This document shows positions 12,192-57,945 of a stretch of 57,957 nucleotides of DNA, piece by piece. The notes beneath the pieces are model-generated. The model did no database searches. It was given only the letters and a program-made list of their open reading frames with translations, and was not told the DNA's origin. How positions within the stretch are numbered: position 1 is the first letter of the stretch; each line of letters starts with the position of its first letter. The stretch comes from Bacillus sp. ISL-37. Its GTDB lineage: Bacteria; Bacillota; Bacilli; Bacillales; Cytobacillaceae. The translations under genes were made by a program, and so were the position numbers. Where the stretch lies: positions 1 through 57,957 of the forward strand of contig NZ_JAGGQL010000020.1 in NCBI RefSeq assembly GCF_018613315.1. The letters are read 5' to 3'.

Positions 12192-12290
12192 ATTAATGTG
12201 CCCGTAAAGAGCAGAATCAGTTAAAGGTCACATAAAAGTGATTAATGTGCCCGTAAGGAAGCGGGATGGCAATTAAAGGTCACATAATCC
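12192..12290 (+). repeat. Two-unit ~52-bp tandem repeat between purF and purM
   Basis: The core ATTAATGTGCCCGTAA occurs twice (TGCCCG at 12199 and 12248), and TTAAAGGTCACATAA occurs twice (GGTCACA at 12227 and 12279, exactly 52 bases apart). Within each unit GTGCCC and GGTCAC are complementary but for one mismatch, so each can fold. The same GTGCCCGT ... GGTCACA core makes up the array at the end of the window (57640-57932), so this is a dispersed family. It lies inside the pur transcript. Confidence 0.8.
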
Positions 12291-12350
12291 TTAAAGGAAG
12301 CGTCTACGACAAGAGACTTAGAGAATACAGCCAAATCGGAGGTAATGAAC

Positions 12351-13394
12351 ATGGCAAATGCGTATAAGCAGGCTGGTGTGGATATTGAGGCCGGGTACGA
12401 GTCGGTGGAAAGGATTAAAAAGCATGTGAATCGGACGGTCAGGCCTGGTGTGATGGGTGCATTAGGCGGTTTCGGCGGAATGTTCGACCTTTCCAGCCTT
12501 GGACTGAAGGAGCCGGTGCTCGTTTCAGGCACGGATGGTGTCGGCACGAAGCTGATGCTGGCATTCATGATGGACCGGCATGATACAATCGGCATAGATG
12601 CGGTCGCGATGTGCGTGAACGACATCGTTGTGCAGGGAGCTGAACCATTATATTTCCTTGACTATATCGCCTGCGGAAAAGCAGAGCCGGAAAAAATCGA
12701 GGCAATTGTCAGAGGGATTGCCGACGGCTGCGAGCTGGCTGGTTGTGCGCTGGTCGGCGGGGAAACCGCGGAAATGCCAGGGATGTACTCTCCGGAAGAA
12801 TACGATTTGGCTGGTTTTTCGGTCGGAGCCTGTGAAAAAGCTGATATCATCACAGGGCAGAAAATCAAAGAGGGCGATGTGCTGATCGGACTTGCATCAA
12901 GCGGCATCCACAGCAATGGCTACTCGCTTGTGCGCAAGGTGTTTTTCGAGCAGGCGGACTGGGAGCTTGACCGTTACGTAGAAGAGTTTGGCTGTACGCT
13001 GGGAGAAGAACTACTCAAGCCAACACGTATTTATGTAAAATCGGTGCTTGCCGCAAAGAAGCAGTTTGAACTCAAAGGGCTGGCCCATATTACGGGCGGC
13101 GGCTTCATCGAAAACATACCGCGGATGATGCCGGAAGGACTGGGCGCAAAAATCGAAGAGGGCAGCTGGGAAATTCCGCAGGTGTTCAAGACGATTGAAT
13201 CCCTTGGTGAAATTGAACGCAAGGATATGTATAATATCTTCAATATGGGGATTGGCATGGTAACGGCGGTGGATGCAGGAATTGCTCATGAAGTTGTGGC
13301 GTTTTTTAACAAAAACGGAGAGCAGGCTGCCGTAATCGGCACAATAACTGGCATTGAAGGAATCGAGATGAAAGTGGCTGGTGAAGAGCTATGA
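12351..13394 (+). CDS. purM: AIR synthetase PurM
   Basis: Closes the imidazole ring: FGAM plus ATP gives AIR. It has 347 residues. The N-terminal [15 protein letters not shown], the [13 protein letters not shown]-binding segment, and [11 protein letters not shown] are conserved. Of two in-frame ATGs (12345 and 12351) the second sits eight bases after GGAGGT and gives the family start. It is the first gene after the repeat-bearing gap and has its own strong ribosome site; the stop overlaps purN (ATGA). Confidence 0.96.
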
Positions 13395-13993
13395 AAAAAA
13401 TAGCGGTATTCGCGTCGGGAAGCGGAAGCAATTTTCAGGCGATTGCCGTCGCGGCACAAGCAGGTATCCTGAATGCTGAAATCTCGCTGCTTGTATGTGA
13501 TAAGCCAGGCGCATTTGCTGTCGACCGGGCTGAAATGTTAGGAATTCCTGCTCTGGTGATCAGTCCAAAAAGCTATCCTGCCAAAGCAGCATATGAGGCA
13601 GAGATTTTACAAAAGCTGATTAGCCTTGATGTCGAAATGATTGTGCTTGCGGGCTACATGCGCCTCATCGGGCCGACATTGCTTGAAGCATATGAAGGGA
13701 AAATCGTGAACATCCACCCGTCACTTTTGCCGGCCTTTCCTGGGAAGGATGCGATCGGGCAGGCGCTGGCAGCGGGAGTTGAGACTACAGGAGTGACGAT
13801 CCATTTCGTGGACGAGGGAATGGATACAGGACCGATCATTGCGAGCGCTGCGGTAAAAATCGATGCTAGCGAAACAAGGGAGTCGCTCCAGAAGAAAATA
13901 CAGCGGATTGAACACAACATGTATCCAGACGTTTTGGAGGAGCTGTTGAACGGAGAAGAGGAGGCAGTACAATGGGAAAAAAGCGTGCACTGA
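13391..13993 (+). CDS. purN: GAR transformylase PurN
   Basis: Transfers a formyl group from 10-formyl-THF to GAR, giving FGAR. It has 200 residues. [10 protein letters not shown] binds the phosphate, [10 protein letters not shown] holds the catalytic Asn and His, and [13 protein letters not shown] holds the catalytic Asp. It overlaps purM by four bases and purH by 22. The order purM-purN-purH-purD is the same as in B. subtilis. Confidence 0.96.
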
Positions 13994-15510
13994 TCAGTGT
14001 TTCGAATAAAGAAGGAATTGTAGAATTTGCGAAGGAACTTGTCGAGCTTGGATTTGAAATCGTCTCGACTGGCGGTACCAAAAAAGCGCTCAAGGAAGGT
14101 GGCGTTCCCGTCATTGGGATCAGCGATGTGACTGGTTTTCAGGAAATCCTTGAAGGCCGTGTTAAGACGCTGCACCCTAAAATTCACGGAGGCTTGCTTG
14201 CGAAGTACGACGATCCTTCCCATCAGGCTCAGCTGGCTGAAAATGAAATCGAGCAAATCGAGCTTGTCTGCGTCAACTTGTATCCTTTTAAAGAAACAAT
14301 TTCAAAGCCTGGCGTGACAGCGGAAGATGCGATTGAAAATATCGACATCGGCGGTCCAGCGATGCTGCGTGCATCAGCTAAAAATCATCAATACATAACA
14401 GTGCTTGTAGACCCTGCAGATTATCACCAGGTGATTGAAGAGTACAAGAATCAGAACGAAACAACAATGAAAACCCGTCGCCTTCTTGCTGCGAAGGTGT
14501 TCCGCCATACGGCTGCGTATGATGCACTGATTGCTGAATACATGACAGAACTTGCTGGCGAGGAACGGCCGGAAAAAATGACGGTGACTTACGAGCTGAA
14601 GCAAAGCTTGCGCTACGGTGAAAATCCGCATCAGAAGGCTGCTTTTTACCAGAAGCCGCTTGGTTCAGCCTTTTCAGTGGCGGCAGCGGAACAGCTTCAC
14701 GGAAAAGAGCTATCTTATAACAATATCAATGATGCAAACGCGGCTTTGCAGATTGTAAAAGAATTCTCTGAGCCGGCAGCGGTTGCGGTTAAGCATATGA
14801 ACCCTTGTGGAGTGGGTGTCGGTAAGGACATTTTTGATGCTTTCGGAAAGGCGTTTGAAGCGGATCCGGTCTCTATCTTTGGCGGGATCATCGCCTTGAA
14901 TCGCGAGGTTGATGGGGAGTCTGCCCGCAAGCTTTATGAAATCTTCCTTGAAATCATCATCGCTCCTTCTTTTAGCGACGAAGCTCTGGAAATTTTAACG
15001 GCGAAAAAGAATCTCCGGTTGTTGAAGGTCTCATTTGATGGTGAGGCTGCGAAGGAGAATACTCTGTCCTCTATTGAAGGCGGATTGCTTGTTCAGCAGC
15101 AGGATGCGTATGGATTTGACGATGCGGAAATCTCTGTACCGACAAAGCGTGAACCAACCGAGGCAGAATGGGAAGCCTTGAAGCTTGGATGGAAGGTTGT
15201 TAAGCATGTTAAATCCAACGCGATTGTCGTGGCGGATAAGGATATGACCTTAGGAATCGGCGCCGGTCAAATGAACCGAGTTGGAGCGGCTATGATTGCG
15301 CTGGAGCAGGCTGGGGCAAAAGCGGATGGAGCTGCGCTCGCATCTGACGCATTCTTCCCGATGGACGACACCGTCGAAGCGGCAGCAAAAGCTGGTATCA
15401 CGGCCATCATCCAGCCCGGCGGATCCGTCCGTGATGCAGATTCAATCAAAAAAGCGGATGAATATGGCATTGCGATGGTGTTTACCGGCGTAAGGCATTT
15501 CAGACATTAA
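13972..15510 (+). CDS. purH: Bifunctional AICAR formyltransferase / IMP cyclohydrolase PurH
   Basis: Performs the last two steps to IMP. The N-terminal cyclohydrolase domain (~1-195; [25 protein letters not shown]) precedes the AICAR formyltransferase domain, with RYGENPHQ and KHMNPCGVG (catalytic Lys-His) in its first half and the ATP/folate-binding KHVKSNAIV further on. Its 512 residues are normal. Translation starts within purN at an ATG after GGAGGCAG. A 70-base gap precedes purD. Confidence 0.97.
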
Positions 15511-15559
15511 TGGCTGGCAAGTGGTTTGGAATCACGCATTAAGTTAAAAGTAGTCCTGA

Positions 15560-16934
<1,375 letters not shown>

Positions 16935-16960
16935 AAAATCATCTCCTTTAGTTTAGTTGA

Positions 16961-16986
16961 AGCCCCCGGATTAATGGGGGCTTTTT
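16961..16986 (+). terminator. Purine operon terminator
   Basis: AGCCCCC and GGGGGCT form a 7-bp GC-rich stem around an 8-base loop, followed by TTTTTA. Confidence 0.9.
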
Positions 16987-17002
16987 AGTTCAGTATCTAA
17001 AG

Positions 17003-17275
17003 TTAACTTGGGTTATAAGGAATCCATCCTTCTGAATCCCCATTTTCGGCATTCTGCTGTTCCATCATATCCTGGCCTTTTTCATAGGCAGCGGTCAACG
17101 GGCAATAGCGGACAATCCCTTCTCCGACTTTCATTGCGCCCAACATCGCTATGAAGATATAGGAATCCTTCCACGGCCGTTTCACCATTTTCGATGTCGA
17201 CCAAGCGAGGATTGTCAGTCCTGCTGTAATCCTGACAAGTGCGTTGATGATCCCGATATTCGGTCGTACATTCAT
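17003..17275 (-). CDS. DUF2892 (YgaP-type transmembrane domain) protein
   Basis: A 90-residue protein. MNVRPNIGIINALVRITAGL is the classic DUF2892 opening: a short cytoplasmic start and an inner-membrane helix (~10-28), then a second helix (~40-57) with IVRYCPLTAAY. In YgaP this domain anchors a rhodanese domain; here it stands alone with a polar tail. ATG 17273-17275 is preceded by AAAGGAG. The role is unknown. It may share a transcript with the 37-aa gene downstream, although the hairpin at 16961 lies between them. Confidence 0.85.
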   Translation of the reverse strand: MNVRPNIGIINALVRITAGLTILAWSTSKMVKRPWKDSYIFIAMLGAMKVGEGIVRYCPLTAAYEKGQDMMEQQNAENGDSEGWIPYNPS

Positions 17276-17406
17276 ATCTCATCGCTCCTTTACTCCATTT
17301 TTACAGTTAATTTGAAATTCTTTAATGCGTTAAACAGTGAAATATGTTACGATAGTACAATAATGTAAGGGCTTACTTTTTGTGCAAATTTCGATTTTAA
17401 ACATGT

Positions 17407-17650
17407 GGCTCTGTTAAATCGATGTTATATATAACACTCTGTTGATGAAGTGGAAGGCGCGTAGACTCCTCCGAAAATGCTAACGCATTTTCATCGTGCG
17501 TGGGCAGGTTCATTGAAGCTTCTCAATGTCCTGCGGGATCAGCCGGCTAGGTGAGACCCCGCAGGAGCTTGCGACGAGGAAGCTCAGCGCCGGCCCCGCG
17601 GAAAGCGAAGCGCCTGGAACGAAAATCAACAGCCATTTTTTAACAGAGCC
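17407..17650. mobile_element. MITE-like Bacillaceae intergenic repeat (~244 bp)
   Basis: The element is bounded by perfect 12-bp inverted ends, GGCTCTGTTAAA (17407-17418) and TTTAACAGAGCC (17639-17650). Inside it lie GC-rich complementary segments (CCTGCGGG near 17530 with CCCGCAGG near 17560) and phrases such as GTGAGACCCCGCAGGAGC and CCCCGCGGAAAGCGAAGCG, which I recognise from a highly repeated Bacillaceae intergenic element. It has no coding capacity. No clear target duplication is visible. It lies between the DUF2892 gene and yerA and could be a transposase-mobilised MITE or a decayed element. Confidence 0.7.
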
Positions 17651-17677
17651 CTAACATAGAGAAAAGGGGAACATGGT

Positions 17678-19417
17678 ATGGAACAACGTTATCGATGGAA
17701 AAACAAACAATTGCGCGACCATGCTGCTGTTTTGGACGGCACCCTTTCACCGACGGTCTTATTGAAGAATGCGACATATTTGAACCAGACATTCCGCAAG
17801 TGGATGACTGCGAACATTTGGATTTACAATGACAGGATTGTGTATGTTGGTGAAAACCTGCCTGAAAATACAAAGCAATGTGAAATAGTGGATTGCACCG
17901 GGATGAAGCTGGTGCCGGGCTATATTGAACCACATGCCCACCCATTTCAACTTTATAATCCCCATTCTTTCGCTGCCTATGCATCGCAGACGGGGACGAC
18001 GACGCTGATTAATGACAATATGGTGCTGGCTTTACAATTAGGAAAAAAGAAAGCGTTTTCCTTTATCAATGAGCTGAATGACAATCCGGTCACGATGTAC
18101 TGGTGGTGCCGTTTTGATGCGCAGACTGAAATCCAGCATGAGGAAGAGGTCTTCTCCAACAGCAATGTCAGAGCCTGGCTCGAGCATGAGAATGTCGTCC
18201 AGGGCGGTGAGCTGACATGCTGGCCGAAGCTGTTGAACGGCGACGACATGATTCTTCACTGGATGCAGGAAACGAAGCGCCATCACAAGAAAATTGAGGG
18301 GCACTTTCCTGGTGCATCAGAAAAGACGCTCGCGAAAATGATGCTGTTCGGCGCGGATTGCGACCATGAGGCGATGACTGGCGAGGAAGTTCGCAGAAGG
18401 CTGATGCAAGGATATATGGTTTCATTGAGACATTCATCGATCCGTCCGGATTTGCCGAAGCTGCTGGATGAGATTCATGAACTGGATATTGCGGTGTACG
18501 ACCGTTTCATGATGACGACAGATGGGTCATCGACCGCTTTTTATGAAAATGGCGTGATGGATGAGCTGATTCGTATTGCAATTGAAAAAGGCGTTCCGGT
18601 CATCGATGCTTATAATATGGCGACGGTCAATGTGGCACGTTATTATAATTTTGAACATCTGCACGGCAATATCGCGACAGGCAGGATTGCGAATATCAAT
18701 ATTTTGAGTGATGAAATGAACCCGACACCTGTTTCGGTGCTGGCAAAAGGCCAGTGGGTGAAGCGTGATGGTGAAGCAATGGATGCAGCGAAAGAGCTGG
18801 ACTGGACCCAAATGGGCTTTGAGCCGCTTAAAATGGACTGGGACCTGACGGTGGATGATATGCAATTCTCGATGCCGTTTGGAATCAAGATGGAGAATTC
18901 GGTCATAACGAAGCCGTATTCGATTTCAATCGATGTGTCCGCTGAGGAACTGTCTACAAAGCATGATGAGTGCTTTTTCATGCTGATCGACCGAAATGGG
19001 CAATGGCGAATCAATACGATGCTGAAAGGTTTTGCGACCGAACTGCAGGGTCTTGCGAGTTCGTTTTCCAATACTGGCGACATCATTCTGATTGGCAAAA
19101 ACAAGCAGGATATGATGGCTGCTTTTAACAGGATGAAGGAGCTCGGCGGTGGCATAGTGGCGTGTGAAAATGGTGTGCCTGTCAAGGAGATTCCATTGAG
19201 GCTGCAGGGTATCATGTCCAGCCATCCTGTGACGGAGCTGATGGCGGAGGAGAAGAAGCTGCTTGAATATCTAAAAGAAAAAGGCTATAAATTCGCCGAT
19301 CCGATTTATTCATTATTATTCTTCAGTTCAACGCATTTGCCATATATCCGTATCACACAAGAGGGCATCTATGATGTGATGAAAAAAACGGTACTCTTTC
19401 CAACGATAATGCGTTAA
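17678..19417 (+). CDS. yerA: Adenine deaminase-family amidohydrolase YerA
   Basis: A 579-residue protein of the AdeC-like amidohydrolase family. A short beta domain precedes the metal-dependent barrel, opened by PGYIEPHAHP near residue 84 (HxH metal ligands). EGHFPGASEKTL and GADCDHEAMTGEE match AdeC metal and substrate segments, followed by the C-terminal adenine-deaminase domain with an FSNTGDII region. AdeC hydrolyses adenine to hypoxanthine and ammonia; YerA paralogs have not been shown to do so, and the active-site sequence differs (PHAHP instead of GHVHI), so the substrate is open. Neighbours are the same as in B. subtilis (yerA-yerB-yerC). Confidence 0.88.
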   Translation: MEQRYRWKNKQLRDHAAVLDGTLSPTVLLKNATYLNQTFRKWMTANIWIYNDRIVYVGENLPENTKQCEIVDCTGMKLVPGYIEPHAHPFQLYNPHSFAAYASQTGTTTLINDNMVLALQLGKKKAFSFINELNDNPVTMYWWCRFDAQTEIQHEEEVFSNSNVRAWLEHENVVQGGELTCWPKLLNGDDMILHWMQETKRHHKKIEGHFPGASEKTLAKMMLFGADCDHEAMTGEEVRRRLMQGYMVSLRHSSIRPDLPKLLDEIHELDIAVYDRFMMTTDGSSTAFYENGVMDELIRIAIEKGVPVIDAYNMATVNVARYYNFEHLHGNIATGRIANINILSDEMNPTPVSVLAKGQWVKRDGEAMDAAKELDWTQMGFEPLKMDWDLTVDDMQFSMPFGIKMENSVITKPYSISIDVSAEELSTKHDECFFMLIDRNGQWRINTMLKGFATELQGLASSFSNTGDIILIGKNKQDMMAAFNRMKELGGGIVACENGVPVKEIPLRLQGIMSSHPVTELMAEEKKLLEYLKEKGYKFADPIYSLLFFSSTHLPYIRITQEGIYDVMKKTVLFPTIMR

Positions 19418-19481
19418 AATATAACAGTGCATCTAGAGATAGACAGCCATGATCGAACTTGGAGATCAAGGGGTGGCGAAA

Positions 19482-20522
19482 ATGAGAAAAAAATGGATCG
19501 CTGTGCTGGCGGCCGCGATGGTGCTTACCGCCGGATGCAGCAGTAAAGAGACAGAGAAAAAAGAAGCAACAGAACATAAAGAAAAAGAGATTGAAGTAGA
19601 CGAGGTTGTCGCTCCGGAGGAACTGCCGTATCAATTCCCGCTGACCGGGGTCGGGACTGCTGAGGAGAGTTCTGACCGGGCGGTGGCCGTGGTGGTCAAT
19701 AACCATCCAAAGGCGCGTCCGCAATCCGGTCTTCACAAAGCTGACGTCGTCCACGAGGTCCTTGCAGAAGGAGACGTTACAAGGTTCGTGGCGATTTTTC
19801 AAAGCGAACAGCCTGAAAAAATAGGGCCGGTCCGCAGTGCGAGGGAATACTTCATTGACCTGGCATCCGGGTTTGACAGTTTCTTCATCGCCCATGGCTA
19901 TAGCCCTGAAGCGAAGGAAATGCTCGAAGGCGGAGCGATCGATAACATCAACGGAATGCAATATGATGGAACACTGTTCAAGCGGGCCGATTTCCGGAAG
20001 GCGCCTCATAATTCTTATATCACCTATAAGAATATTGTGAAGGGAGCGGAAACAAGAGGCTACGCACTTGATGAATTACCGGCTTCTGCAGTATTCTTGA
20101 GCAGTGAGGAAGCTGGACAGCTGGAAGGTACTCCTGCTGTGGAATTCATGGTAAAGTACGGTTCTCCGTCGTTCGATGCGATCTATGAGTACGACACGGA
20201 AAAAGAAAAATACCACCGTTTTAATGGCAGTGAAGAAACCGTTGATCTTGAAACAAAGGATCCTGTTCTGCTCGACAATATCCTTGTCGTGCAAATGGAC
20301 CATCAGGTAATTGATAGTGCAGGCCGCAGGGTCATCGATATGGCCTCCGGTGGCAAGGGATATCTGTTCCAAAAAGGAAAAGTGAATGAGATACAATGGA
20401 AAAATGAAGCTGGCAGGATCGTCCCTTATAAGGATGGGGGTAAAGCTGGTTTCGTTCCCGGGAAAACATGGATCAACATTGTCCCATCAATCAGCGATGT
20501 CTCATTCGACTCTCAACAATAA
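19482..20522 (+). CDS. yerB: DUF3048 lipoprotein YerB
   Basis: An exported lipoprotein of 346 residues. MRKKWIAVLAAAMVLTAGC is a type II signal peptide with lipobox LTAGC (Cys19), followed by a charged E/K-rich linker and then the DUF3048 domain: PLTGVG, VNNHPKARPQSGLHKADVV and GPVRSAREYF are characteristic. The start is ATG 19482, with AAGGGGTGG upstream; GTG 19473 and ATG 19449 are less likely because they would put extra residues before the signal peptide. It follows yerA by 64 bases and precedes yerC by 29, as in B. subtilis. The function is unknown. Confidence 0.9.
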   Translation: MRKKWIAVLAAAMVLTAGCSSKETEKKEATEHKEKEIEVDEVVAPEELPYQFPLTGVGTAEESSDRAVAVVVNNHPKARPQSGLHKADVVHEVLAEGDVTRFVAIFQSEQPEKIGPVRSAREYFIDLASGFDSFFIAHGYSPEAKEMLEGGAIDNINGMQYDGTLFKRADFRKAPHNSYITYKNIVKGAETRGYALDELPASAVFLSSEEAGQLEGTPAVEFMVKYGSPSFDAIYEYDTEKEKYHRFNGSEETVDLETKDPVLLDNILVVQMDHQVIDSAGRRVIDMASGGKGYLFQKGKVNEIQWKNEAGRIVPYKDGGKAGFVPGKTWINIVPSISDVSFDSQQ

Positions 20523-20551
20523 AATTCTGAGTGAATTAAGGGGTAGACTAT

Positions 20552-20863: not shown

Positions 20864-20875
20864 TTATTGACGAGG

Positions 20876-20913: not shown

Positions 20914-21056
20914 AAAAATCGCAGGAAATTACCACTTCGCTATAAAAATGAAAATGTCGCTATAAAAATGAAAAATTCGCTATAAAACAAGATTTTCGCT
21001 ATTAAATCCATTTTTCCGCTATAAATAATGATTTTGCGCTATATAAAAGGAAAATT
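20914..21056. repeat. 20-bp periodic array with CGCTAT boxes
   Basis: CGCTAT occurs at 20938, 20958, 20978, 20997, 21017 and 21037 (steps of 20, 20, 19, 20, 20). A weaker CGC at 20920 precedes them. Between boxes the sequence is AT-rich and variable. No open frame or stem-loop explains it. The array fills the space between the yerC terminator and the DUF3231 gene. Confidence 0.85.
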
Positions 21057-22290: not shown

Positions 22291-22390
22291 CAGTTCGCCA
22301 ATGAAATTTTATTATCGCCAATAAAATCATATTTTCGCCAATAAATTTTGAAAATCGCCAATAAAAACTGAAAATCGCCAATAAACTTGG
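22291..22390. repeat. 20-bp periodic array with CGCCAAT boxes
   Basis: CGCCAAT occurs at 22296, 22316, 22336, 22356 and 22376, exactly every 20 bases, with AT-rich variable sequence between. It has the same period as the array at 20914-21056 but a different box. It lies upstream of the symporter gene. Confidence 0.87.
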
Positions 22391-32008: not shown

Positions 32009-32120
32009 ATTGGCGAAAATTAGATTATATCGACCACATTTCTGAATATATCAGCGGATTTTATAATATATCGACCACTTTTTCGATTATATCGACCACA
32101 TTCACAAATATATCGACCAA
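32009..32120. repeat. ~21-bp periodic array with CGACCA boxes
   Basis: CGACCA occurs at 32031, 32072, 32093 and 32114, with a degenerate copy at 32052 (CAGCGG), giving steps of 21, 20, 21, 21. ATATAT precedes most boxes, and the rest is variable and AT-rich. It is the third array of the 20-21 bp class in the window, with yet another box. It lies between the divergent dinB-like and rocA genes. Confidence 0.82.
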
Positions 32121-33905: not shown

Positions 33906-34040
33906 TGCCAATGCAGAGAAGTTCCTTTTACCGTTTTAGCAACAGAACTGCAATTTGGGTAAAAGCAGAGGGTTTCCTTTTACCGTTTTGACAAAAGAAC
34001 CGCGTTTTGGGTAAAAGCAGAAGGTTTCCTTTTACCAAGA
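33906..34040. repeat. 52-bp tandem array between rocA and aceB
   Basis: GCAGAG/GCAGAA occurs at 33913, 33965 and 34017, and CCTTTTACC at 33924, 33976 and 34028: exact 52-base steps. In the second and third units GGTAAAAG and CTTTTACC are perfect 8-bp inverted arms around CAGAGGGTTTC or a variant. The rest of each unit (TTTTGACAAAAGAACCG) is also conserved. The period is not a multiple of 3, so it is not a coding repeat. Confidence 0.85.
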
Positions 34041-49183: not shown

Positions 49184-49244
49184 AATCTTTCCCCCTTTGT
49201 TATTGCGAAAAATTATTAAAAAAAATATTGCTAATACAATTAAT

Positions 49245-49274: not shown

Positions 49275-49291
49275 TCTATTTTTTCGCCAAA

Positions 49292-49314
49292 ATTACTATT
49301 CCATAAATAGTAAT
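49292..49314. promoter_or_regulatory. Palindrome upstream of the putP promoter
   Basis: ATTACTATT (49292-49300) and AATAGTAAT (49306-49314) are perfect 9-bp inverted arms around CCATA. The site lies 17 bases upstream of the putP -35, a typical place for an activator. The binder is unknown. Confidence 0.55.
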
Positions 49315-49338
49315 TTACTTTTTTAATATATCTATAGT

Positions 49339-49372
49339 GCAAAAGAATAACCATGGCTCGAAAGCCATGGTT
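49339..49372 (-). terminator. Terminator of plsY
   Basis: On the minus strand AACCATGGCT and AGCCATGGTT form a 10-bp stem around TTCG, followed by ATTCTTTT. Confidence 0.88.
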
Positions 49373-49377
49373 AATGT

Positions 49378-49998
49378 TCACATCTTAAGATCTTTTGGGG
49401 GAAGGCGGTCGCCCTTCACTTTTTTATCATTGATTTTCGGTTCGTTTCCGCTAAAAAAGTTCTGCAGATTAGAACGATGGAGGAAAATAAGAAATATTAT
49501 AAAAGCAGTAAAGATGAATGGCTCATGAATTTCCGGCGAGACAAATGAATAAATGAGCATCGCGATTCCCACTGAAATCGAACCCATGAACACATATTTG
49601 GTCAAGAAAACGACCGCAATAAAGGTCACATACACAGCCAGGAACATTCCAATATCAACAATCAGCAGTGCCCCTGCCGTCGTTGCAATTGCCTTGCCAC
49701 CGCGGAATCCTGCGAAAATTGGGAAACAGTGCCCAATCACGGCAATTAAGCCCGCGTACAGTGGCTCGACAGGAGAATCGAAGATCAGCGGAAGAGAAGC
49801 GGCAAGCATCCCTTTTGCGACATCCACAAGGAGGACGACAATCGCTGCCCGCTTGCCCATGACCCGCAATGTATTCGTCGCACCAGGGTTTTTACTGCCG
49901 TGGTCCCTGATATCAACATGGAAAAAATATTTGCCAATCAATAACGCAGTTGGAATGGATCCAACCAAATATGCTGCCAATAGACACATCCAAGTCAT
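49378..49998 (-). CDS. plsY: Glycerol-3-phosphate acyltransferase PlsY
   Basis: A five-helix membrane enzyme (206 residues) that acylates glycerol-3-phosphate from acyl-phosphate, the first committed step of phospholipid synthesis with PlsX. GSIPTALLIGKYFF, the SKNPGATNTLRVMG motif and GHCFPIFAGFRGGKAIATTAG carry the catalytic His, Ser and phosphate-binding residues. ATG 49998 has AAAGGGTG upstream. It is a single minus-strand gene before putP. Some Bacillus carry parC/parE near plsY; they are not in this window. Confidence 0.95.
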   Translation of the reverse strand: MTWMCLLAAYLVGSIPTALLIGKYFFHVDIRDHGSKNPGATNTLRVMGKRAAIVVLLVDVAKGMLAASLPLIFDSPVEPLYAGLIAVIGHCFPIFAGFRGGKAIATTAGALLIVDIGMFLAVYVTFIAVVFLTKYVFMGSISVGIAMLIYSFVSPEIHEPFIFTAFIIFLIFLHRSNLQNFFSGNEPKINDKKVKGDRLPPKDLKM

Positions 49999-50474
49999 AA
50001 AGTGTCACCCTTTTAATCTAGTTAAATAATTTTATTCTGAAATAGTCCAGGTCAGAAGGTTTATTTTACCGAGCCAATCATTTCTTGATAAGTAGGGACA
50101 GTGCTGAAAACGTGTGTTCTGCAGGCAGTGAATAGACTGGCCGAAACCTTCGGGAACTATTATGCCGTTTTTAACGTCTGTTTTATCAAAGCCACTTTGT
50201 AGTCTTCTTTTACTGAAACACGTTAGGTTTGTTGATATTAAACTGGAACACAATGTTGAGCAAGATAATCCGAATGGCGTGCGGGCAGAAAAGCGAGTAC
50301 TTTTGCTAAGCTTTAGATCGGGTAATAAGATCTGTGTAAGCTACCTATATTACGGGTGTTGGCTTCCAATTTATGTAACCATTCTCTTTGTATTGTAAAA
50401 AAGAATGAGTAGGAATGGAAGAGTTTTTCGAAAAATACGATAGTTAACACTTTGATTTAATAGTGGGTTTCTTT
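49999..50474. other. Intergenic stretch without a recognisable gene
   Basis: About 480 bases between plsY and the dgkB promoter. Open frames of 73-78 codons exist on both strands, but none has a ribosome site or familiar sequence. On the minus strand TTCTGA and TAAAAT, 17 bases apart close to plsY, could be its promoter. I see no repeat or strong hairpin. It may be a decayed gene. Confidence 0.5.
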
Positions 50475-50504
50475 TTGGCAAATGGACAGAATTTAGTTTA
50501 TGAT
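50475..50504 (+). promoter_or_regulatory. Probable dgkB promoter
   Basis: TTGGCA (50475-50480) and TATGAT (50499-50504) are 18 bases apart, about 100 bases upstream of the dgkB start. Confidence 0.6.
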
Positions 50505-50605
50505 ATATCCGGTACGATCGATATTGAGGTAATTGCCTGGATAGAAGTAATGAGCTATGATGTAAAAGGATGGAATAAAAAACCATATTAAGTAGGATGA
50601 TGGGT

Positions 50606-51547
50606 ATGAAAAGAGCAAGAATCATTTATAATCCGACTTCGGGTCGTGAGATTTTTAAAAAGCATCTTGCGGAGGTCTTGGTAAAGCTGGAGAATGCCGG
50701 TTATGAGACATCATGCCATGCAACGACAGGTGAGGGGGATGCGACGCAGGCTGCTAGAATTGCGGTTGAGCGGCGCTATGACCTGGTGATTGCGGCTGGC
50801 GGAGATGGCACGATCAATGAAGTGGTCAATGGAATCGCTGAACAGGAATACCGCCCGAGAATCGGCGTCATTCCAGTCGGCACAACAAATGACTTTGCGC
50901 GCGCGCTCCATATTCCAAGGGATATTGAGGCTGCGGTCGACATCATTGTTAAAGGCGAAACGATTCCGGTTGACGTAGGCCGAATTAACGATAAATATTT
51001 CATAAATATTGCAGGCGGCGGCAGGCTGACAGAGCTGACATATGAAGTTCCAAGCAAACTCAAGACAATGCTGGGTCAGCTCGCTTATTATCTAAAAGGA
51101 ATTGAGATGGTGCCATCCATTCGTGCTTCTGAAGTGACGATTGAGTATGATGGCAAGTTGTTCGAAGGCGAGGTCATGATGTTCCTTGTCGGGCTAACGA
51201 ATTCAGTCGGCGGCTTCGAACGCCTGGCTCCGAACTCGTCGATTAATGATGGATTGTTTTCTTTATTGATTTTGAAGAAGACGAACCTGGCTGATTTCAT
51301 TAGAATTGCCTCTCTTGCGGTCCGCGGTGAACACATCAATGACCCAGGCGTAATATACACACAGGCAAATCGGATCAAGGTGCAATCCAAGGAAACTGTC
51401 CAATTGAACCTAGACGGTGAATACGGCGGCAATCTGCCAGCTGAATTCGAAAACCTGTTCAGGCACATCGAAGTCTACGTACCACTCGACGAAATCCGTC
51501 CTGAAGACCGGCCGGAGAACCTTGAATTGAATTTTAAAGCAGAATAA
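50606..51547 (+). CDS. dgkB: Diacylglycerol kinase DgkB
   Basis: A soluble, membrane-associated lipid kinase (313 residues) that returns diacylglycerol, a by-product of lipoteichoic acid synthesis, to phosphatidic acid. MKRARIIYNPTSGREIFKKH is almost the same as in B. subtilis DgkB; GGDGT at residues 65-69 is the nucleotide site, and GVIPVGTTNDFARAL and LNLDGEYGG are family motifs. Of three in-frame ATGs, 50606 fits both the family start and the AGGA spacing. In B. subtilis it follows gatB; here about 7 kb separates them. Confidence 0.95.
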   Translation: MKRARIIYNPTSGREIFKKHLAEVLVKLENAGYETSCHATTGEGDATQAARIAVERRYDLVIAAGGDGTINEVVNGIAEQEYRPRIGVIPVGTTNDFARALHIPRDIEAAVDIIVKGETIPVDVGRINDKYFINIAGGGRLTELTYEVPSKLKTMLGQLAYYLKGIEMVPSIRASEVTIEYDGKLFEGEVMMFLVGLTNSVGGFERLAPNSSINDGLFSLLILKKTNLADFIRIASLAVRGEHINDPGVIYTQANRIKVQSKETVQLNLDGEYGGNLPAEFENLFRHIEVYVPLDEIRPEDRPENLELNFKAE

Positions 51548-51552
51548 TTGGG

Positions 51553-51580
51553 AACCACTCCTTGATTGGAGTGGTTTTTC
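51553..51580 (+). terminator. Terminator after dgkB
   Basis: AACCACTCC and GGAGTGGTT form a perfect 9-bp stem around TTGATT, followed by TTTC. Confidence 0.93.
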
Positions 51581-51629
51581 TGTGTGTTGGGATAGGGTAT
51601 AGGAATCTACTATAGATTATTTGAAACCA

Positions 51630-51775
51630 GGTTTGATATTAACTTTGACTTCGGACAAAACGAAGAGGAGAAGCCGAGGTTTTGTATGAACCTGGTGTGA
51701 CTTGGGACAAAACGAAGAGGAGAAGGTGAAGTTTTGTCTGAACCTAGTGTGACTTCTGACAAAACCTTATCCGGT
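51630..51775. repeat. 52-bp tandem array between dgkB and pncA
   Basis: GACTT followed by GACAAAAC starts at 51647, 51699 and 51751, exact 52-base steps; the third copy breaks off after the left arm. In the second unit GACAAAAC and GTTTTGTC are perfect 8-bp inverted arms around a purine-rich 17-base loop (GAAGAGGAGAAGGTGAA), followed by TGAACCTAGTGT. The first unit's right arm has one change. A weaker half unit precedes 51647. Confidence 0.85.
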
Positions 51776-51900
51776 GTCCCTGTTGAATAATATATCCAAA
51801 AACTAACCAACCAAAATACCTTCCCGATATGAAAAATTTGCCTGCAAATCATATTTGGAAGAAAATAAAAGATAATAAGATAAAAGGGTGTGGATACATA

Positions 51901-52452
51901 ATGGGGAATAAGGCGTTGATCAATATCGACTATACGTATGATTTCGTGGCGGATGACGGCAGGCTGACTTGCGGCGAGCCGGGACAAGCGATTGAAGAGA
52001 AGCTTGTCGGAGTGACGAAGGAGTTCATCGAAAAGGGTGACTATGTTGTTTTCGCGATTGATGTCCATGATGAGGGCGATGAGTTCCATCCGGAGACGAA
52101 GCTCTATCCGCCTCATAATATCCGCGGTACGAAAGGCAGGGATTTGTTCGGCAGCCTGCAGGGAGTTTATGAAGAAAATAAGCATCTCGACCATGTGCAT
52201 TATATCGACAAAACGAGGTATTCGGCATTCGCGGGAACGGACCTTGAGATCAAACTGCGCGAGCGAGGCATCACAGAGGTGCATCTCGTCGGTGTATGCA
52301 CCGATATTTGCGTCCTTCACACGGCAGTCGATGCTTATAATAAGGGATTTAAGGTTATTGTGTATAAGGATGCAGTTGCTTCCTTTGACCAGATTGGCCA
52401 CGAGTGGTCGCTTCGCCATTTTGAAAGCTCGATTGGCGCGGAGGTAAAGTAG
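51901..52452 (+). CDS. pncA: Nicotinamidase PncA (isochorismatase-fold cysteine hydrolase)
   Basis: Hydrolyses nicotinamide to nicotinate for NAD salvage. It has 183 residues. The triad is Asp10 (INIDYTYDF), the Lys in YIDKTRYSAF and Cys137 in GVCTDICVLHTA; DVHDEGDEFHPE matches the metal-binding loop. ATG 51901 has AAAGGGTGTGG upstream and gives the family start; the frame is open 24 codons further upstream. pncB follows within 95 bases, so the two consecutive steps are encoded together, like yueJ-yueK in B. subtilis. Confidence 0.93.
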   Translation: MGNKALINIDYTYDFVADDGRLTCGEPGQAIEEKLVGVTKEFIEKGDYVVFAIDVHDEGDEFHPETKLYPPHNIRGTKGRDLFGSLQGVYEENKHLDHVHYIDKTRYSAFAGTDLEIKLRERGITEVHLVGVCTDICVLHTAVDAYNKGFKVIVYKDAVASFDQIGHEWSLRHFESSIGAEVK

Positions 52453-52546
52453 CAGCCATTTGCAAGGCCACATGGTGCGGAGCGTAGTTTCATTTTATCC
52501 GCTGTTTGGTCTAGCAGTTCATGGCAGTATATTTGGAGGTTTTTTG

Positions 52547-54022
52547 ATGAGTACTAAATTCACAGACGATAGCTTAATGCTACACACGGACTTATACCAA
52601 TTAAATATGATGGAAACGTACTGGCGTGATGGCGTCCATAATCGCCGTGCGGTGTTTGATTTGTTTTTCCGCAAGCTTCCTTTCGGCAATGGCTATGCCG
52701 TTTTTGCCGGTCTTGAAAAAATCATCAACTATATTGAAAACTTCGGTTTTACAGAAGGTGATATTCAATACCTGCGGGAAGAAGGAAGTTTTGATGAGGA
52801 TTTTCTTGCCTTTTTAAAAGAAATGCGTTTTACAGGCACCATCCGTGCGATGCAGGAGGGTGAGATTGTCTTTGCCAATGAGCCGCTAGTCAGGGTCGAT
52901 GCACCGCTTGCTGAAGCGCAGCTGATTGAAACGGCGCTTCTGAATATCGTCAATTATCAGACATTGATTGCGACGAAGGCTTCACGAATCAAACAGGTTG
53001 TAAAAGATGAAATCGCGATGGAGTTCGGTACCCGCCGTGCGCATGAAATGGATGCGGCACTTTGGGGTACGCGCGCTGCTTATGTTGGAGGCTTCGATTC
53101 TACCAGCAATGTGCGTGCGGGCAAACTGTTCGGCATCCCGATTGCGGGAACGCATGCCCATTCAATGGTACAGGCTTACAGGGATGATTACACCGCTTTT
53201 AAAAAATATGCTGAAACGCACAGGGACTGCGTATTCCTTGTCGATACGTATGATACGCTGAGATCAGGTGTGCCGAACGCAATCAAAGTGGCAAAGGAAT
53301 TCGGGGATAAAATTAATTTCATCGGCATCCGTCTCGACAGCGGGGACCTCGCATACCTTTCAAAGGAAGCTCGTAAAATGCTTGATGAAGCCGGTTTTAA
53401 AGATGCAAAAATCGTAGCATCCAGCGACCTGGACGAGTATACGATCATGAACCTGAAAGCCCAGGGTGCGAAAATTGATACATGGGGAGTTGGCACGAAG
53501 CTGATCACCGCTTATGAACAGGCTGCTCTTGGCGCAGTTTATAAAATTGTTTCGGTCGAGCGTGGCGACGGAACGATGGAGGACACCATCAAGATTTCCT
53601 CCAATCCGGAAAAGGTGACGACCCCTGGTATCAAAAATGTATACAGGATCATTAACAAAGCCAATAATCGTTCAGAGGGGGATTACATCACACTGGAGGA
53701 CGAGAATCCACAGCAGGAAAAGCGCCTGAAGATGTTCCACCCGGTCCACACATTTATCAGCAAGTTTGTCACCAATTTTGATGCTCGGGATCTGCATCAC
53801 GATATCTTTAAAGAGGGAAAGCTTGTGTACGAGCAGCCAAGCCTGGAAGAAGTCCGCAAGCATTCTAAATACTGCCTAGGTGTTCTATGGGAAGAATACA
53901 CACGTATGCTCAATCCCGAAGAATATCCAGTCGACCTCAGCCAGAAATGCTGGGACAACAAAATGCGCAATATAGAAGAAGTGAAAGAGAAGGTCATGGA
54001 GATGACTGGAGAGAATTTGTAA
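52547..54022 (+). CDS. pncB: Nicotinate phosphoribosyltransferase PncB
   Basis: Converts nicotinate and PRPP to nicotinate mononucleotide, with ATP. It has 491 residues, the Gram-positive PncB length. LMLHTDLYQLNMMETYW, the EFGTRRAHEMDAALWGTRAA phosphohistidine/PRPP region and GVGTKLITAYEQAALGAVYK are conserved. ATG 52547 follows TTGGAGGT; the open frame upstream lacks family sequence. Together with PncA it rebuilds NAD, the cofactor of LigA and RocA. Confidence 0.95.
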   Translation: MSTKFTDDSLMLHTDLYQLNMMETYWRDGVHNRRAVFDLFFRKLPFGNGYAVFAGLEKIINYIENFGFTEGDIQYLREEGSFDEDFLAFLKEMRFTGTIRAMQEGEIVFANEPLVRVDAPLAEAQLIETALLNIVNYQTLIATKASRIKQVVKDEIAMEFGTRRAHEMDAALWGTRAAYVGGFDSTSNVRAGKLFGIPIAGTHAHSMVQAYRDDYTAFKKYAETHRDCVFLVDTYDTLRSGVPNAIKVAKEFGDKINFIGIRLDSGDLAYLSKEARKMLDEAGFKDAKIVASSDLDEYTIMNLKAQGAKIDTWGVGTKLITAYEQAALGAVYKIVSVERGDGTMEDTIKISSNPEKVTTPGIKNVYRIINKANNRSEGDYITLEDENPQQEKRLKMFHPVHTFISKFVTNFDARDLHHDIFKEGKLVYEQPSLEEVRKHSKYCLGVLWEEYTRMLNPEEYPVDLSQKCWDNKMRNIEEVKEKVMEMTGENL

Positions 54023-54026
54023 TGTC

Positions 54027-54060
54027 AGGCTGCTTTCCCAGGATGGAAGGCAGCTTTTTT
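54027..54060 (+). terminator. Terminator after pncAB
   Basis: GGCTGCTTTCC pairs with GGAAGGCAGCT (one T-G pair), followed by TTTTT. Confidence 0.88.
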
Positions 54061-54168
54061 AAGTAAATGAATCTATAAATTTGATGTGAATTCCCTGTTT
54101 TATCCAAAGGATTTCCCCTAAGGATACAGAATTATTAAAGAACGAATCTTTTCTAAGGATGTTGCCGT

Positions 54169-55242
54169 ATGAATGACCAGAGGACAGCAGTAGATTATGA
54201 ACAGTTCATACCTAGGGAAACAGGCTTCATATTCAAATTCATCAAAAAAGACAACCAATTCATCCATACTTTTATCGAAGGCAAGCTCATAGAAAAGGTC
54301 GGTCTTTGTCCTGACACAGTAACTGGAAAATCGCTGTGTGAATTTTTGCCGCCTGACCAGGTATTACGCAAAGAGTTTTTTTACGAAAAGGCGTGGAATG
54401 GGGAGCAGGTCAACTATGAAGGAAGCTTTGGCGGTGTTCACTATTTGGCAATCTTGAATCCTGTTATTCAAGAAAACCATACTATTGAGGTAATCGGGAC
54501 AGCGATCGATATCACCAACGAAAAAAACAGAGAAAAGCAGGCACAGCAAATGGAGAAGCTTGCTGTAGTGGGCGAGCTGGCAGCAGGAATCGCTCACGAA
54601 ATCAGGAATCCGCTCACATCCATGAAAGGCTTTGCTAAAATCGTCAAAGAAAGCGTTACGGAGCAAAAGTTGGTTCCGTACCTTGATATCATGCTGGATG
54701 AAATGGAAAGGATTAATCAAATCGTAAATGAATTCATGTTCATTGCCAAACCTCACGAGAATGTTAATTTTCAATATGCGAACTTTAGTAAACTGATTAA
54801 GGATTGCATCACCTTCATGGAACCACAGGCTAACCTTAAAAGTATAAAAATAGAATCTAATGTTCACATTGAATATATATTGACCTGTGACCAGAACCAG
54901 ATGAAGCAAGTGTTCATTAATCTCCTCCAGAATGCAATCGAAGCGACGGGGAACAACGGCCATTTTATCTTCGTAAGGCTTGAAGAAGTGAGTGGGGAAT
55001 CGGTCATGGTCACGATTATTGATAAGGGCTGCGGAATACCAGAATCAAGGTTGAATCGTCTGTTTGAGCCTTTCTACTCGACGAAGGAAAAAGGGACGGG
55101 CCTGGGGTTGCTCACCTGCAAACGAATTATCGACCTTCACCAGGGCAGCATTGATATCGAAAGCCAGCCTGGGGAAGGCACAACCATACGTATCGTGCTG
55201 CCACGGCATAATATTGTAGAACCATTGCTGATTGCAGAATAG
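54169..55242 (+). CDS. Orphan PAS-domain histidine kinase (sporulation-kinase type)
   Basis: A soluble sensor kinase (357 residues) without membrane helices. An N-terminal PAS-like domain (~10-115) precedes the HisKA phosphoacceptor (AAGIAHEIRNPLTSMKGF, His143) and the ATPase domain with N (NLLQNAIEAT), G1 (DKGCGIPE), F (FEPFYSTKEKGTG) and G2 (GLGLLTCKRI) boxes. The H-box is of the KinA-KinE type that feeds Spo0F in the sporulation phosphorelay. No response regulator is adjacent, as usual for those kinases. AAGGATG serves as ribosome site. Spo0F as its partner is inferred. Confidence 0.88.
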   Translation: MNDQRTAVDYEQFIPRETGFIFKFIKKDNQFIHTFIEGKLIEKVGLCPDTVTGKSLCEFLPPDQVLRKEFFYEKAWNGEQVNYEGSFGGVHYLAILNPVIQENHTIEVIGTAIDITNEKNREKQAQQMEKLAVVGELAAGIAHEIRNPLTSMKGFAKIVKESVTEQKLVPYLDIMLDEMERINQIVNEFMFIAKPHENVNFQYANFSKLIKDCITFMEPQANLKSIKIESNVHIEYILTCDQNQMKQVFINLLQNAIEATGNNGHFIFVRLEEVSGESVMVTIIDKGCGIPESRLNRLFEPFYSTKEKGTGLGLLTCKRIIDLHQGSIDIESQPGEGTTIRIVLPRHNIVEPLLIAE

Positions 55243-55243
55243 A

Positions 55244-55279
55244 ATGTGTCATGCTTCTTTTAGGAGCATGGCATTTTTG
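55244..55279 (+). terminator. Terminator after the histidine kinase
   Basis: CATGCT and AGCATG form the main stem, extended by AATG / CATT around a small internal loop, followed by TTTT. Confidence 0.8.
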
Positions 55280-55368
55280 CTGTCGTTCCAGATGGTTTAT
55301 CTGTTAGAATAAAAGAATATATCCTCAATATCCCTCAACATTTTCTCACTGAAAGGAGCCACCTCACT

Positions 55369-57501
55369 ATGCTGCAAAAAGCCCATGAATTATTGCAAAA
55401 CCATTTTGGCTATTCCTCATTCCGGATGGGGCAGGAACAGGCGATCTCATCTGTGCTGGAAGGTGAAAACACTGTCTGTGTCATGCCGACTGGAGGCGGA
55501 AAATCGATTGTCTATCAAATCCCGGCGCTCGTGCTGCCTGGGACAACCATTGTCATTTCTCCGCTGATCTCCCTGATGAAGGACCAGGTCGATACGCTCA
55601 CCCAGCTTGGCATTCCGGCAACTTACATCAATAGCTCGCTGACTGCCGGTGAAGCTGCCGCGCGAATGGATGATGCCAGGAACGGAAAGTACAAGCTGTT
55701 GTACATCGCGCCCGAGCGACTGGGATCCTGGGAGTTCATCGATGACCTGCAGGATATGGATATTCCTCTGATCGCCGTCGATGAAGCGCACTGTATTTCC
55801 CAATGGGGACATGATTTCCGACCTAGCTATCTGCAGATTTCCGGACTTGCTGATCGTTTGCCGAGAAAGCCAATCGTGCTCGCCCTGACGGCAACCGCGA
55901 CCCCGAAGGTAAGGGAAGATATTTGCGCATCGCTAAAAATAAATCCTGAGAACACGGTTATCACTGGATTCGAGCGCAGCAACTTAAGTTTTTCCGTTGT
56001 CAAAGGCCAGGATCGCCAGGCATACTTAAAGGATTTTATCAAAAAGAATGAAAAGGAAGCTGGCATCATTTATGCGGCGACCAGGAAAATCGTCGACCAG
56101 CTGTATGAATGGCTGCAGAAGGAAGGCTTCAATGCGGCCCGCTATCACGCAGGCATGAACGATGAAGACCGAAACCGCGAACAGGAACGATTTTTACAGG
56201 ATGAAGCTACTGTGATGGTTGCAACTTCAGCATTCGGAATGGGCATTGATAAAAGTAACATCCGCTATGTCCTGCACTTCCAGATGCCGAAGAATATGGA
56301 GAGTTACTATCAGGAGGCTGGCCGTGCCGGGCGTGATGGCTTGGACAGTGAATGTACCGTGCTTTATTCGTCGCAGGATGTCCAGGTGCAGCGCTTTTTG
56401 ATCGACCAGTCAGCAGACCGCGAGCGAATTGCGCCTGAGCTGGAAAAATTGCAGCAAATGGTCGGCTACTGCCATACCGAGGAGTGCCTGCAATCCTATA
56501 TCCTTCACTATTTTGGCGAAACAGAGACAGTAAAATGCGGACGCTGCGGTAATTGTACGGACGCTCGTGAGACACAGGATGTCACGAAGGATGCGCAAAT
56601 GGTGCTGTCGTGCATCATCCGGATGGGGCAGAAATACGGAAAGGCGATGACAGCCAATGTTTTGACCGGCTCAAGGAATAAAAAGGTGTTGGAATTCCGC
56701 CTGGATAAATTGCCGACGTACGGACTGATGAAGGATCGTAATGCCAAGCAGATCAATGACCTGATCGAATTCCTGATTTCCCAGGAGCTGATTGGCGTCG
56801 AGCATGGCACCTACCCGACGATTTATGTACCTGAAAAAGGGAAGGATGTCCTGCTTGGAAAAACGCAGGTTTTCAGAAAGGAAGCAGTGCAAATCAAGCA
56901 GGTTTCCAATGATGATCCATTGTTTGAAGAACTTCGTGAACTGCGGAGAGAGGTCGCTTCTGGGGAGAAAGTGGCGCCGTTTATGATTTTCTCGGATTCC
57001 ACGTTGAAGGACATGTGCCTTAAGCTGCCGCTGACGGATGCTGAGTTCCTCAATGTGGCTGGAGTGGGAGAACACAAGCTGCAGAAGTATGGTTCGCCAT
57101 TCATTCAGCGGATCATCGAGTTCTGCGAGGAGCATCCGGAGCGCGAGCCTGTGATGAATGCCGTTGCGGAACCAGCCAGGAAGCCGGCGAAAAAAGCAGT
57201 CGGGGATTCCCATCTCGAAACGTACAAGCTGCATCAGGCGGGAAGGACAGTTGCTGAAATCGCCGCGAGTCGCGAGCTGGTGGAAAGCACGGTTGAAAAT
57301 CACCTGATTCAGTGCATCCAGCAAGGAATGGAAGTCGATTATGACTTGCTGATTCCAGCTGAGCATATTGAAAACCTCGAGCGAGCCGTTGACGAAGCTG
57401 GCCGTGACAGGTTAAAACCAATTAAAGAGTTGCTGCCTGATGAGGTTAGCTATTTTATGATCAAAGCATTCTTGTATATGTCCAAGAAAAAGGTACATTA
57501 A
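55369..57501 (+). CDS. recQ: ATP-dependent DNA helicase RecQ
   Basis: A 3'-5' superfamily 2 helicase (710 residues) for repair and recombination. TGGGKS (41-46, Walker A), DEAH (138-141) in VDEAHCISQWGHDFRPSY, TSAFGMGIDK and QEAGRAGRDG (motif VI) are the helicase motifs; CGRCGNC is part of the RecQ zinc site. A winged helix, an HRDC domain (~515-590) and a C-terminal helix-turn-helix (SHLETYKLHQAGRTVAEIAA) follow, the full-length Bacillus RecQ plan. AAAGGAG precedes the ATG. Confidence 0.95.
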   Translation: MLQKAHELLQNHFGYSSFRMGQEQAISSVLEGENTVCVMPTGGGKSIVYQIPALVLPGTTIVISPLISLMKDQVDTLTQLGIPATYINSSLTAGEAAARMDDARNGKYKLLYIAPERLGSWEFIDDLQDMDIPLIAVDEAHCISQWGHDFRPSYLQISGLADRLPRKPIVLALTATATPKVREDICASLKINPENTVITGFERSNLSFSVVKGQDRQAYLKDFIKKNEKEAGIIYAATRKIVDQLYEWLQKEGFNAARYHAGMNDEDRNREQERFLQDEATVMVATSAFGMGIDKSNIRYVLHFQMPKNMESYYQEAGRAGRDGLDSECTVLYSSQDVQVQRFLIDQSADRERIAPELEKLQQMVGYCHTEECLQSYILHYFGETETVKCGRCGNCTDARETQDVTKDAQMVLSCIIRMGQKYGKAMTANVLTGSRNKKVLEFRLDKLPTYGLMKDRNAKQINDLIEFLISQELIGVEHGTYPTIYVPEKGKDVLLGKTQVFRKEAVQIKQVSNDDPLFEELRELRREVASGEKVAPFMIFSDSTLKDMCLKLPLTDAEFLNVAGVGEHKLQKYGSPFIQRIIEFCEEHPEREPVMNAVAEPARKPAKKAVGDSHLETYKLHQAGRTVAEIAASRELVESTVENHLIQCIQQGMEVDYDLLIPAEHIENLERAVDEAGRDRLKPIKELLPDEVSYFMIKAFLYMSKKKVH

Positions 57502-57503
57502 GG

Positions 57504-57528
57504 CGAAGCCCGCGGGCTTCGTCTTTTT
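57504..57528 (+). terminator. Terminator after recQ
   Basis: CGAAGCCCGCGGGCTTCG is a perfect palindrome, followed by TCTTTTT. Confidence 0.9.
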
Positions 57529-57639
57529 CCTTTTCAATGTATCTATAAAAGGAATTATTTAAAGTTTATCGTCACGAGTTTAATGTTCCCATACAACAGC
57601 ATCCCCGGAGTTTATCGGCACATAACCGGTTTGAATGTG

Positions 57640-57945
57640 CTCATGAAACAGTGTGATTAGTGCCCGTGAAAGAAGAAATCGAAAGAGCACGGTCACAAGA
57701 AGGGGAAACATGTGCCCGTGAAAGAGGAAATCGCAAGAGCACGGTCACAAGAAGGGGAAACATGTGCCCGTGAAAGAAGAAATCGAAAGAGCACGGTCAC
57801 AAGAAGGGAAAACATGTGCCCGAGAAGGAGGAAATCGAAGTAGCACGGTCACAAGAAGAGGAAACATGTGCCCGTGTAAGAAGAAATAGAAAAAGCACGG
57901 TAACAAGGAGCGGAAACAGGTGCCCGTGAAAGTATAAACAGTAAA
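57640..57945. repeat. Six-unit 52-bp tandem array downstream of recQ
   Basis: TGCCCG occurs at 57661, 57713, 57765, 57817, 57869 and 57921: five steps of exactly 52 bases. A unit consists of GTGCCCGTG, a purine-rich 19-base loop (AAAGAAGAAATCGAAAGAG), CACGGTCAC (complementary to the first arm but for one mismatch) and a 15-base spacer AAGAAGGGGAAACAT. The whole unit is conserved with scattered changes. No gene is seen here; the only long frames run through the repeat and 52 is not divisible by 3. Degenerate traces start near 57610. Confidence 0.92.

Follow-up and report, generated by a model that had tools for sequence, protein, structure and literature searches.

The window analyzed here, a stretch of 57,957 nucleotides from Bacillus sp. 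ISL-37 (NZ_JAGGQL010000020.1, our contig C13), harbors four intergenic arrays of tandem 52-bp units (Table 1). The first lies between purF and purM, identified by Pfam as GATase and AIRS, respectively. The second, at 33.9 kb, is located 3' of a rocA-like aldehyde dehydrogenase gene and its terminator, and 5' of a malate synthase gene. The third, at 51.6 kb, is flanked by genes for a DAGK-type lipid kinase and an isochorismatase, and the fourth, at 57.6 kb, lies 3' of recQ and extends to the contig end (flanks by Pfam). An earlier note on this DNA had described four such arrays in three sequence families, three of them with exact 52-bp steps, and this description holds. Tandem Repeats Finder (TRF) gave 0% insertions and deletions (indels) in each of the arrays at 33.9, 51.6 and 57.6 kb; the pur array, which is missing from the TRF list, was seen by box search and belongs to the same family as the 57.6 kb array. 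The step counts had been assigned in reverse order, the five-step array being that at 57.6 kb and the one-step array that of the pur operon. The 49-base step reported for the pur array exists, but the displacement is confined to the GTGCCC arm, the GGTCAC boxes stepping 52.

Table 1. Repeat arrays of the window and the hairpins located within them.
Feature	Position	Strand	Location	Boxes or family	Method
pur array	12192..12290	+	between purF and purM	GTGCCC 12198, 12247; GGTCAC 12226, 12278	sequence search, Pfam flanks
one complete 27-bp hairpin of the pur array	12226-12252			GGTC..GCCC	
52-bp array, 2.2 copies	33922..34036	+		GGTAAAAG/CTTTTACC, perfect arms	TRF
27-bp hairpin of the 33.9 kb array	33958-33984			GGTAAAAG..CTTTTACC	
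52-bp array, 2.3 copies	51646..51765	+		ACAAAAC/GTTTTGT	TRF
52-bp array, 5.2 copies	57660..57932	+		GTGCCC/GGTCAC	TRF
four exact hairpins of the 57.6 kb array	from 57691, steps of 52 bp			GGTC-N19-GCCC	
20-21 bp word array	32026..32119	+	5' of aldehyde dehydrogenase gene	TATATCGACCA	TRF, comparison

The commonest unit format comprises a 27-bp imperfect hairpin, 5'-GGTC-N19-GCCC-3', and a 25-bp spacer (24 to 26 bp). In the fetched loci, GGTC and GCCC are offset by 19 in 241 of the 257 cases with another GGTC 51-53 bp further on. Within the GTGCCC/GGTCAC family, GTGCCC is followed by GGTCAC after 31 bp and GGTCAC by the next GTGCCC after 21 bp, which sums to 52. At about 10.4 bp per turn, these distances correspond to three and two turns and would thus place the boxes on one face of the helix; box spacing in arrays of other families was measured by hand. 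The note had proposed that all arms share one face of the DNA. Both this spacing and the 20-21/40-42 bp class described below fit that idea, which we still only infer, no protein having been found.

The stem is conserved as a structure. In the consensuses of 56 arrays, Watson-Crick pairing from positions 6-22 to 10-18 has a frequency of 54-86%, where 25-40% would be expected; this is the lowest P value that 1000 shuffles can give, the shuffles ignoring relatedness between arrays. The 35 distinct stems co-vary likewise, with 7-21 to 10-18 as the strongest positions, and so do the outer positions 1-4. The arms thus co-vary between families, and the check that the note had named as a possible refutation did not refute it; examples are GGTCAAATAGA..TCTATACGCCC, GGTCGTTCAT..ATGAACGCCC and GGTCACTATGA..TCATAGTGCCC. 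Stems with a T.C mismatch (932 matches) outnumber the perfect-stem GGTC..GACC form about 10-fold. The latter has 97 matches, which occur in 28 of the 397 genomes searched from the order and have a step of mostly 52 bp among the matches listed. A comparison of 121 pairs of adjacent units with exact boxes gave 598 substitutions and 18 indels, a ratio of 0.030 versus 0.093 in orthologous intergenic DNA.

Recurrence of this pitch was assessed in a repeat-blind sample consisting of the window and L010-L020 (278 kb, 159 intergenic regions). Recurrence of 9-mers at 21, 41, 42, 52, 104 and 156 bp was found in 6-9 regions each, versus 0.1-0.6 in block shuffles. A period of 51, 52 or 104 was observed in 9 of the 14 intergenic arrays with a period of at least 40, one of the 14 having been labelled coding through a spurious open reading frame (ORF). 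Ladders of 9-mers, at 52 bp and at 20-21 bp, occur in the ISL-37 genome, a genus mate and other genera, and are weaker in other families. All 19 TRF arrays of the ISL-37 genome lie between ORFs, one locus being duplicated on two contigs. Chance and coding repeats were ruled out by the shuffles and this location. In the same genome, 44 units match GTGCCCGT..GGTCAC; their arms are constant, their loops are specific to each array, and almost all of them stand in 52-bp series. The double GGTC-N19-GCCC pattern gave 69 matches in this genome. When compared with shuffles of the same composition, the 52-bp consensus has a significant inverted repeat (P<=0.05) in 20 of 33 arrays, a set that includes several orthologues and one locus twice.

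We searched the order with two GGTC-N19-GCCC hairpins separated by a free gap of 10-40, the reversed pattern serving as control. The search gave 932 matches in 53 of the 397 genomes, 39 of which have at least four, versus 15 matches of the reversed pattern. Pattern sequences represent no fewer than nine families (f1, f2, f6, f11, f14, f29, f42, f44, f30). Neighbor distances up to 130 bp were 51 (11), 52 (165), 53 (18) and 102-106 (157), and none else, among 303 hairpin matches in the fetched loci; this count was repeated unfiltered, the cluster filter of the neighbor-gene count favoring 52-bp steps. Unit lengths are therefore not evenly spread but peak at 52, genome-wide and order-wide, in unrelated sequences, and the view that the period is not due to chance stands. 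Among the matches listed, those with gaps other than 24-26 (G201, G225, G262, G377, G397) resemble coding repeats. In other orders of the class, 15 isolated matches were found in 13 of 360 genomes (398 searched), with no 52-bp repeat among the matches listed; the G804 match has a gap of 26 and unrelated halves, and the reversed control outnumbers the pattern in these genomes. A scan of named contigs gave at least 119 stretches, mostly single chance matches. Among the matches listed, 52- or 104-bp arrays of this kind were seen only in L021 (Siminovitchia fordii), L110 (Bacillus sp. ISL-41), L099 and L131. The last two are labelled Chryseobacterium sp. ISL-80, which we take for a misnamed Bacillus-like genome. 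L045 holds an unrelated 105-bp GC-rich repeat.

The arrays have a polarity with respect to replication. In the nine genomes with dnaA placed, the GGTC-to-GCCC strand runs with the fork in 70 of 73 arrays (G018 17/17, G010 15/15, G240 8/8, G019 7/7, G122 6/6, G016 4/4, G238 4/4, G142 1/1, G325 8/11); dnaA was located by search or read by eye at the contig start, and the terminus was assumed to lie opposite the origin. All three exceptions are in G325, whose arrays split by insertion were counted as two, and merging them gives 69 of 71. This strand is thus the lagging-strand template. Local GC skew agrees in 50 of 56 arrays. Relative to their neighboring genes, 19 of these 56 arrays point the same way as both and 10 the opposite way to both; 17 lie between convergent and 4 between divergent genes, and 6 were unplaced. 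GC skew is still followed by 8 of the 10 opposing arrays. Composition was rejected as the cause of polarity: four of the five arrays with a clearly C-rich GGTC strand (L255-L259, -0.16 to -0.28) still run with the local skew. Arrays of the ISL-37 genus are commoner on one replichore (12 vs 5 in G018, 12 vs 3 in G010).

Orthologous sites were compared between species. The purF-purM gap carries the GTGCCC family in ISL-37, G004 and G012, and word arrays with a 21-bp step (GTGCAATTA or GGGAGATT) or none in other genus mates. Across L140-L159 the repeat class of this gap varies between species of one genus, the gap being short and empty in several. Orthologous 52-bp arrays are found 3' of the rocA-like gene in ISL-37, G019, G014 and G005, with differing copy numbers. 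In the comparisons of both sites, 52-bp arrays are replaced in several species by 21-bp word arrays or are simply missing. Arrays thus persist between species, and their type differs at one site. In G069, which belongs to another genus, the same arms, 37-bp span and 52-bp step are combined with a quite different, T-rich loop.

We favor, with a probability of about 40%, a DNA-level, fork-polar array of chromosomal sites, made of tandem 52-bp units and read by a putative protein. Each unit presents the inverted boxes 5'-GGTC and GCCC-3' over a 27-bp span with a complementary inner stem, and a spacer of 25 bp (24-26) follows. Distances of two and three helical turns thus alternate between the boxes, which would all lie on one face. 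A putative DNA-binding or DNA-processing protein may read the boxes, as well as the hairpin in single-stranded DNA, and may pack side by side along one face of the helix; only the polarity compatible with passing forks would be retained. The rigid span and the pitch argue for recognition of double-helical DNA, and the co-varying inner stem, which differs between arrays of one genome, argues for pairing. This model, in which polarity belongs to the site, was ranked first because the folding-strength rule considered below failed generally. Its function might be chromosome organization or a fork-related process, which is a guess. The earlier note had suggested a structural or protein-phasing role or a common amplification mechanism. 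That interpretation is supported in part; it contained neither the GGTC-N19-GCCC format, the preferred mismatch and the order-wide spread nor, above all, the replication polarity. An order-wide, sequence-flexible but geometry-fixed site array read by a dedicated protein, with polarity set by the fork, would amount to a directional docking system, a description we offer tentatively. If protein-read, the arrays would form a distributed directional chromosome system, hitherto unnamed.

Several observations weigh against this reading. The main gap is that no single known protein accounts for the rigid geometry and the co-varying stem together, and no binder protein was identified. Several different stems coexist within one genome (G018, G010), which is awkward for a single sequence-reading protein. 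Neither mark of the units is universal: the perfect form is as common as the mismatch or commoner in G014, G142, G162 and G311, and other 52-bp families of the same genomes are without GGTC/GCCC. The pattern is absent from 344 of the 397 genomes of the order, so the element is not essential. The T.C at 3-25 and the length conservation within the 27 bp hold partly by construction, and most fetched loci were chosen by pattern match, with the gap of the pattern left free. The majority coding direction of the locus also agrees with the arrays, 46 to 10, so that transcription is not fully separated from replication; such agreement is expected, genes and replication being correlated, and only the opposing cases separate the two causes. 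Finally, IS256-type elements sit inside arrays, and disruption is thus tolerated. One such element (Mutator, PF00872), in a G019 array, is flanked by an 8-bp duplication, TGAGCTAG. Similar transposase genes split two G325 arrays. The transposase genes inside or beside arrays of these two genomes are at L341 1485-2660, L264 3370-4593 and L263 1531-4237, Pfam having been run on the G019 gene only.

Neutral satellite DNA would explain polarity without function, if slippage produced the repeats and the orientation with the stronger hairpin on the lagging-strand template were deleted. In 52 of the 56 arrays the more stable fold belongs to the complement of the GGTC strand, the leading-strand template (mean -5.75 vs -4.51 kcal/mol), as it does in 12 of 13 GGTC/GCCC arrays of a separate comparison. 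The varying copy number of orthologous arrays also fits, as does the ratio of convergent to divergent sites, 17 to 4, which resembles that of tolerated insertions. However, among 17 arrays of other 52-bp families, 4 have a fork-running strand that folds more weakly than its complement, in 11 it folds more strongly, and 2 are tied. Folding strength, which holds in the GGTC/GCCC arrays, was therefore rejected as a general rule for polarity. Slippage also leaves unexplained why the 27/52 geometry is exact, why indels are rare and why at least nine families of the order share the boxes. Minisatellites, or variable number tandem repeats, are likewise tandem, variable in copy number and homogenized within an array, but the 52-bp arrays share unit length and format among unrelated sequences across genera and families. 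We consider a neutral origin rather unlikely. Even neutral arrays would document, in nature, the influence of replication polarity and helical pitch on repeats, with a format kept over many genera while the sequence drifts.

The attC sites of integrons carry core boxes. The 52-bp arrays resemble those of chromosomal integrons in their hairpin, in a structure conserved beyond sequence and in an array orientation tied to replication; they differ in having no gene cassettes, spacers of 24-26 bp, and ends in GGTC/GCCC instead of attC core boxes. According to PMC5371416, the better-folding attC strand of chromosomal integrons lies on the leading-strand template, in 25 of 30 cases, the same rule as neutral deletion would impose on the arrays. 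GGTC/GCCC arrays follow it (70/73; 52/56), unlike the other 52-bp families.

A mobile hairpin element, now a remnant, could have spread through single-stranded lagging-strand DNA in the manner of IS200/IS605 or of repetitive extragenic palindromes (REP), arrays growing at its landing sites and polarity recording insertion on the lagging-strand template. The preferred mismatch within the hairpin and the strand polarity agree with this origin, as do the patchy occurrence within families and G240, in which the same hairpin stands at many loci with different spacers. Like REP and bacterial interspersed mosaic elements, the arrays consist of short imperfect extragenic palindromes in many copies, with alternating inverted motifs, tandem clusters and use as insertion sequence targets. 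They differ by their fixed 27 + 25 bp format and fork polarity, and by the absence of a common GTAG or CGTC foot tag, the foot being GGTC/GCCC with variable neighbors (56 consensuses, by eye). RAYT/REP mobility was rejected: a search of the ISL-37 genome, the only one searched besides controls, found no Y1_Tnp/RAYT gene (PF01797) and hence no TnpA (Y1) transposase of the IS200/IS605 type, the same search being positive in 5 of 14 control genomes. Mobility is also at odds with arrays persisting at orthologous sites. Phage or plasmid origin was discarded as well, the 57.6 kb array having no such match and 27 viral contigs showing one pattern match each and no 52-bp array. A mobile remnant is thus, in our judgment, unlikely.

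Signals recognized in duplex DNA that give chromosome translocation or segregation its polarity (SpoIIIE/FtsK, SMC) would account for the strict polarity and the helical phasing. Many loops contain GAAGGG-like runs (logo: G 0.48-0.68 at positions 13-15), reminiscent of the B. subtilis SpoIIIE signal. Yet loops are variable and pyrimidine-rich in several families (G226, G412, G369), no same oriented G-rich octamer runs throughout (judged by eye, the octamer itself not being searched), and the arrays of G018 and G010 spread along the replichores with no rise toward the terminus visible by eye, which makes this explanation a long shot. Transcribed RNA hairpins (3' untranslated region stabilizers, terminators or regulatory RNA), suggested by stem co-variation, by the position of the pur array in the purF-purM gap and by the frequency of convergent sites, are highly improbable, as co-directional neighbors agree only 19 to 10, 8 of 10 opposing arrays follow replication, the fixed 25-bp spacer has no RNA reason, and Rfam 15 at gathering score returned nothing for six array loci and only 5S rRNA and a purine riboswitch for the window. 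The riboswitch aptamer lies at 3692-3793, 5' of the pur operon.

Other known systems match in part or not at all. RTP-Ter sites are imperfect inverted repeats with unequal half-sites and polarity, traits the units share; unlike these and other polar fork sites, the 52-bp arrays are tandem and spread along both replichores. A CRISPR (clustered regularly interspaced short palindromic repeats) array was rejected, as the spacers are near-identical within an array and not unique. In a literature search confined to titles and abstract openings, with subscription papers mostly outside it, no description was recognized, which does not prove absence from print. As far as tested, the arrays do not belong to a known family; that they are a new kind of bacterial chromosome element is possible, though we would not yet wager on it. 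The simple pattern allows annotation of any genome of the order.

The arrays also affect assembly. The right end of contig C39 (L005 6000-6483) carries the same left flank and array as window positions 57540-57957, which indicates that the assembly breaks at the 57.6 kb array. The arrays thus account for at least one assembly break, at the right end of the window, whose last bases may be unreliable.

The repeat-blind sample contained a second class of intergenic arrays, with periods of 20-21 and 40-42 bp. It is probably a second phased class, separate from the 52-bp arrays. Its words of 9-11 bp (TATATCGACCA, TTATAGCGA, TTATTGGCGA and others) recur every 20-21 bp with differing spacers. Besides the array in Table 1, members occur at 20937-21043 and 22295-22385 of the window and in L015 and L017. 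A word array lies 5' of the rocA-like gene in most members of the genus, and all its units change word together (TATATCGACCA or AATTCGACCA).

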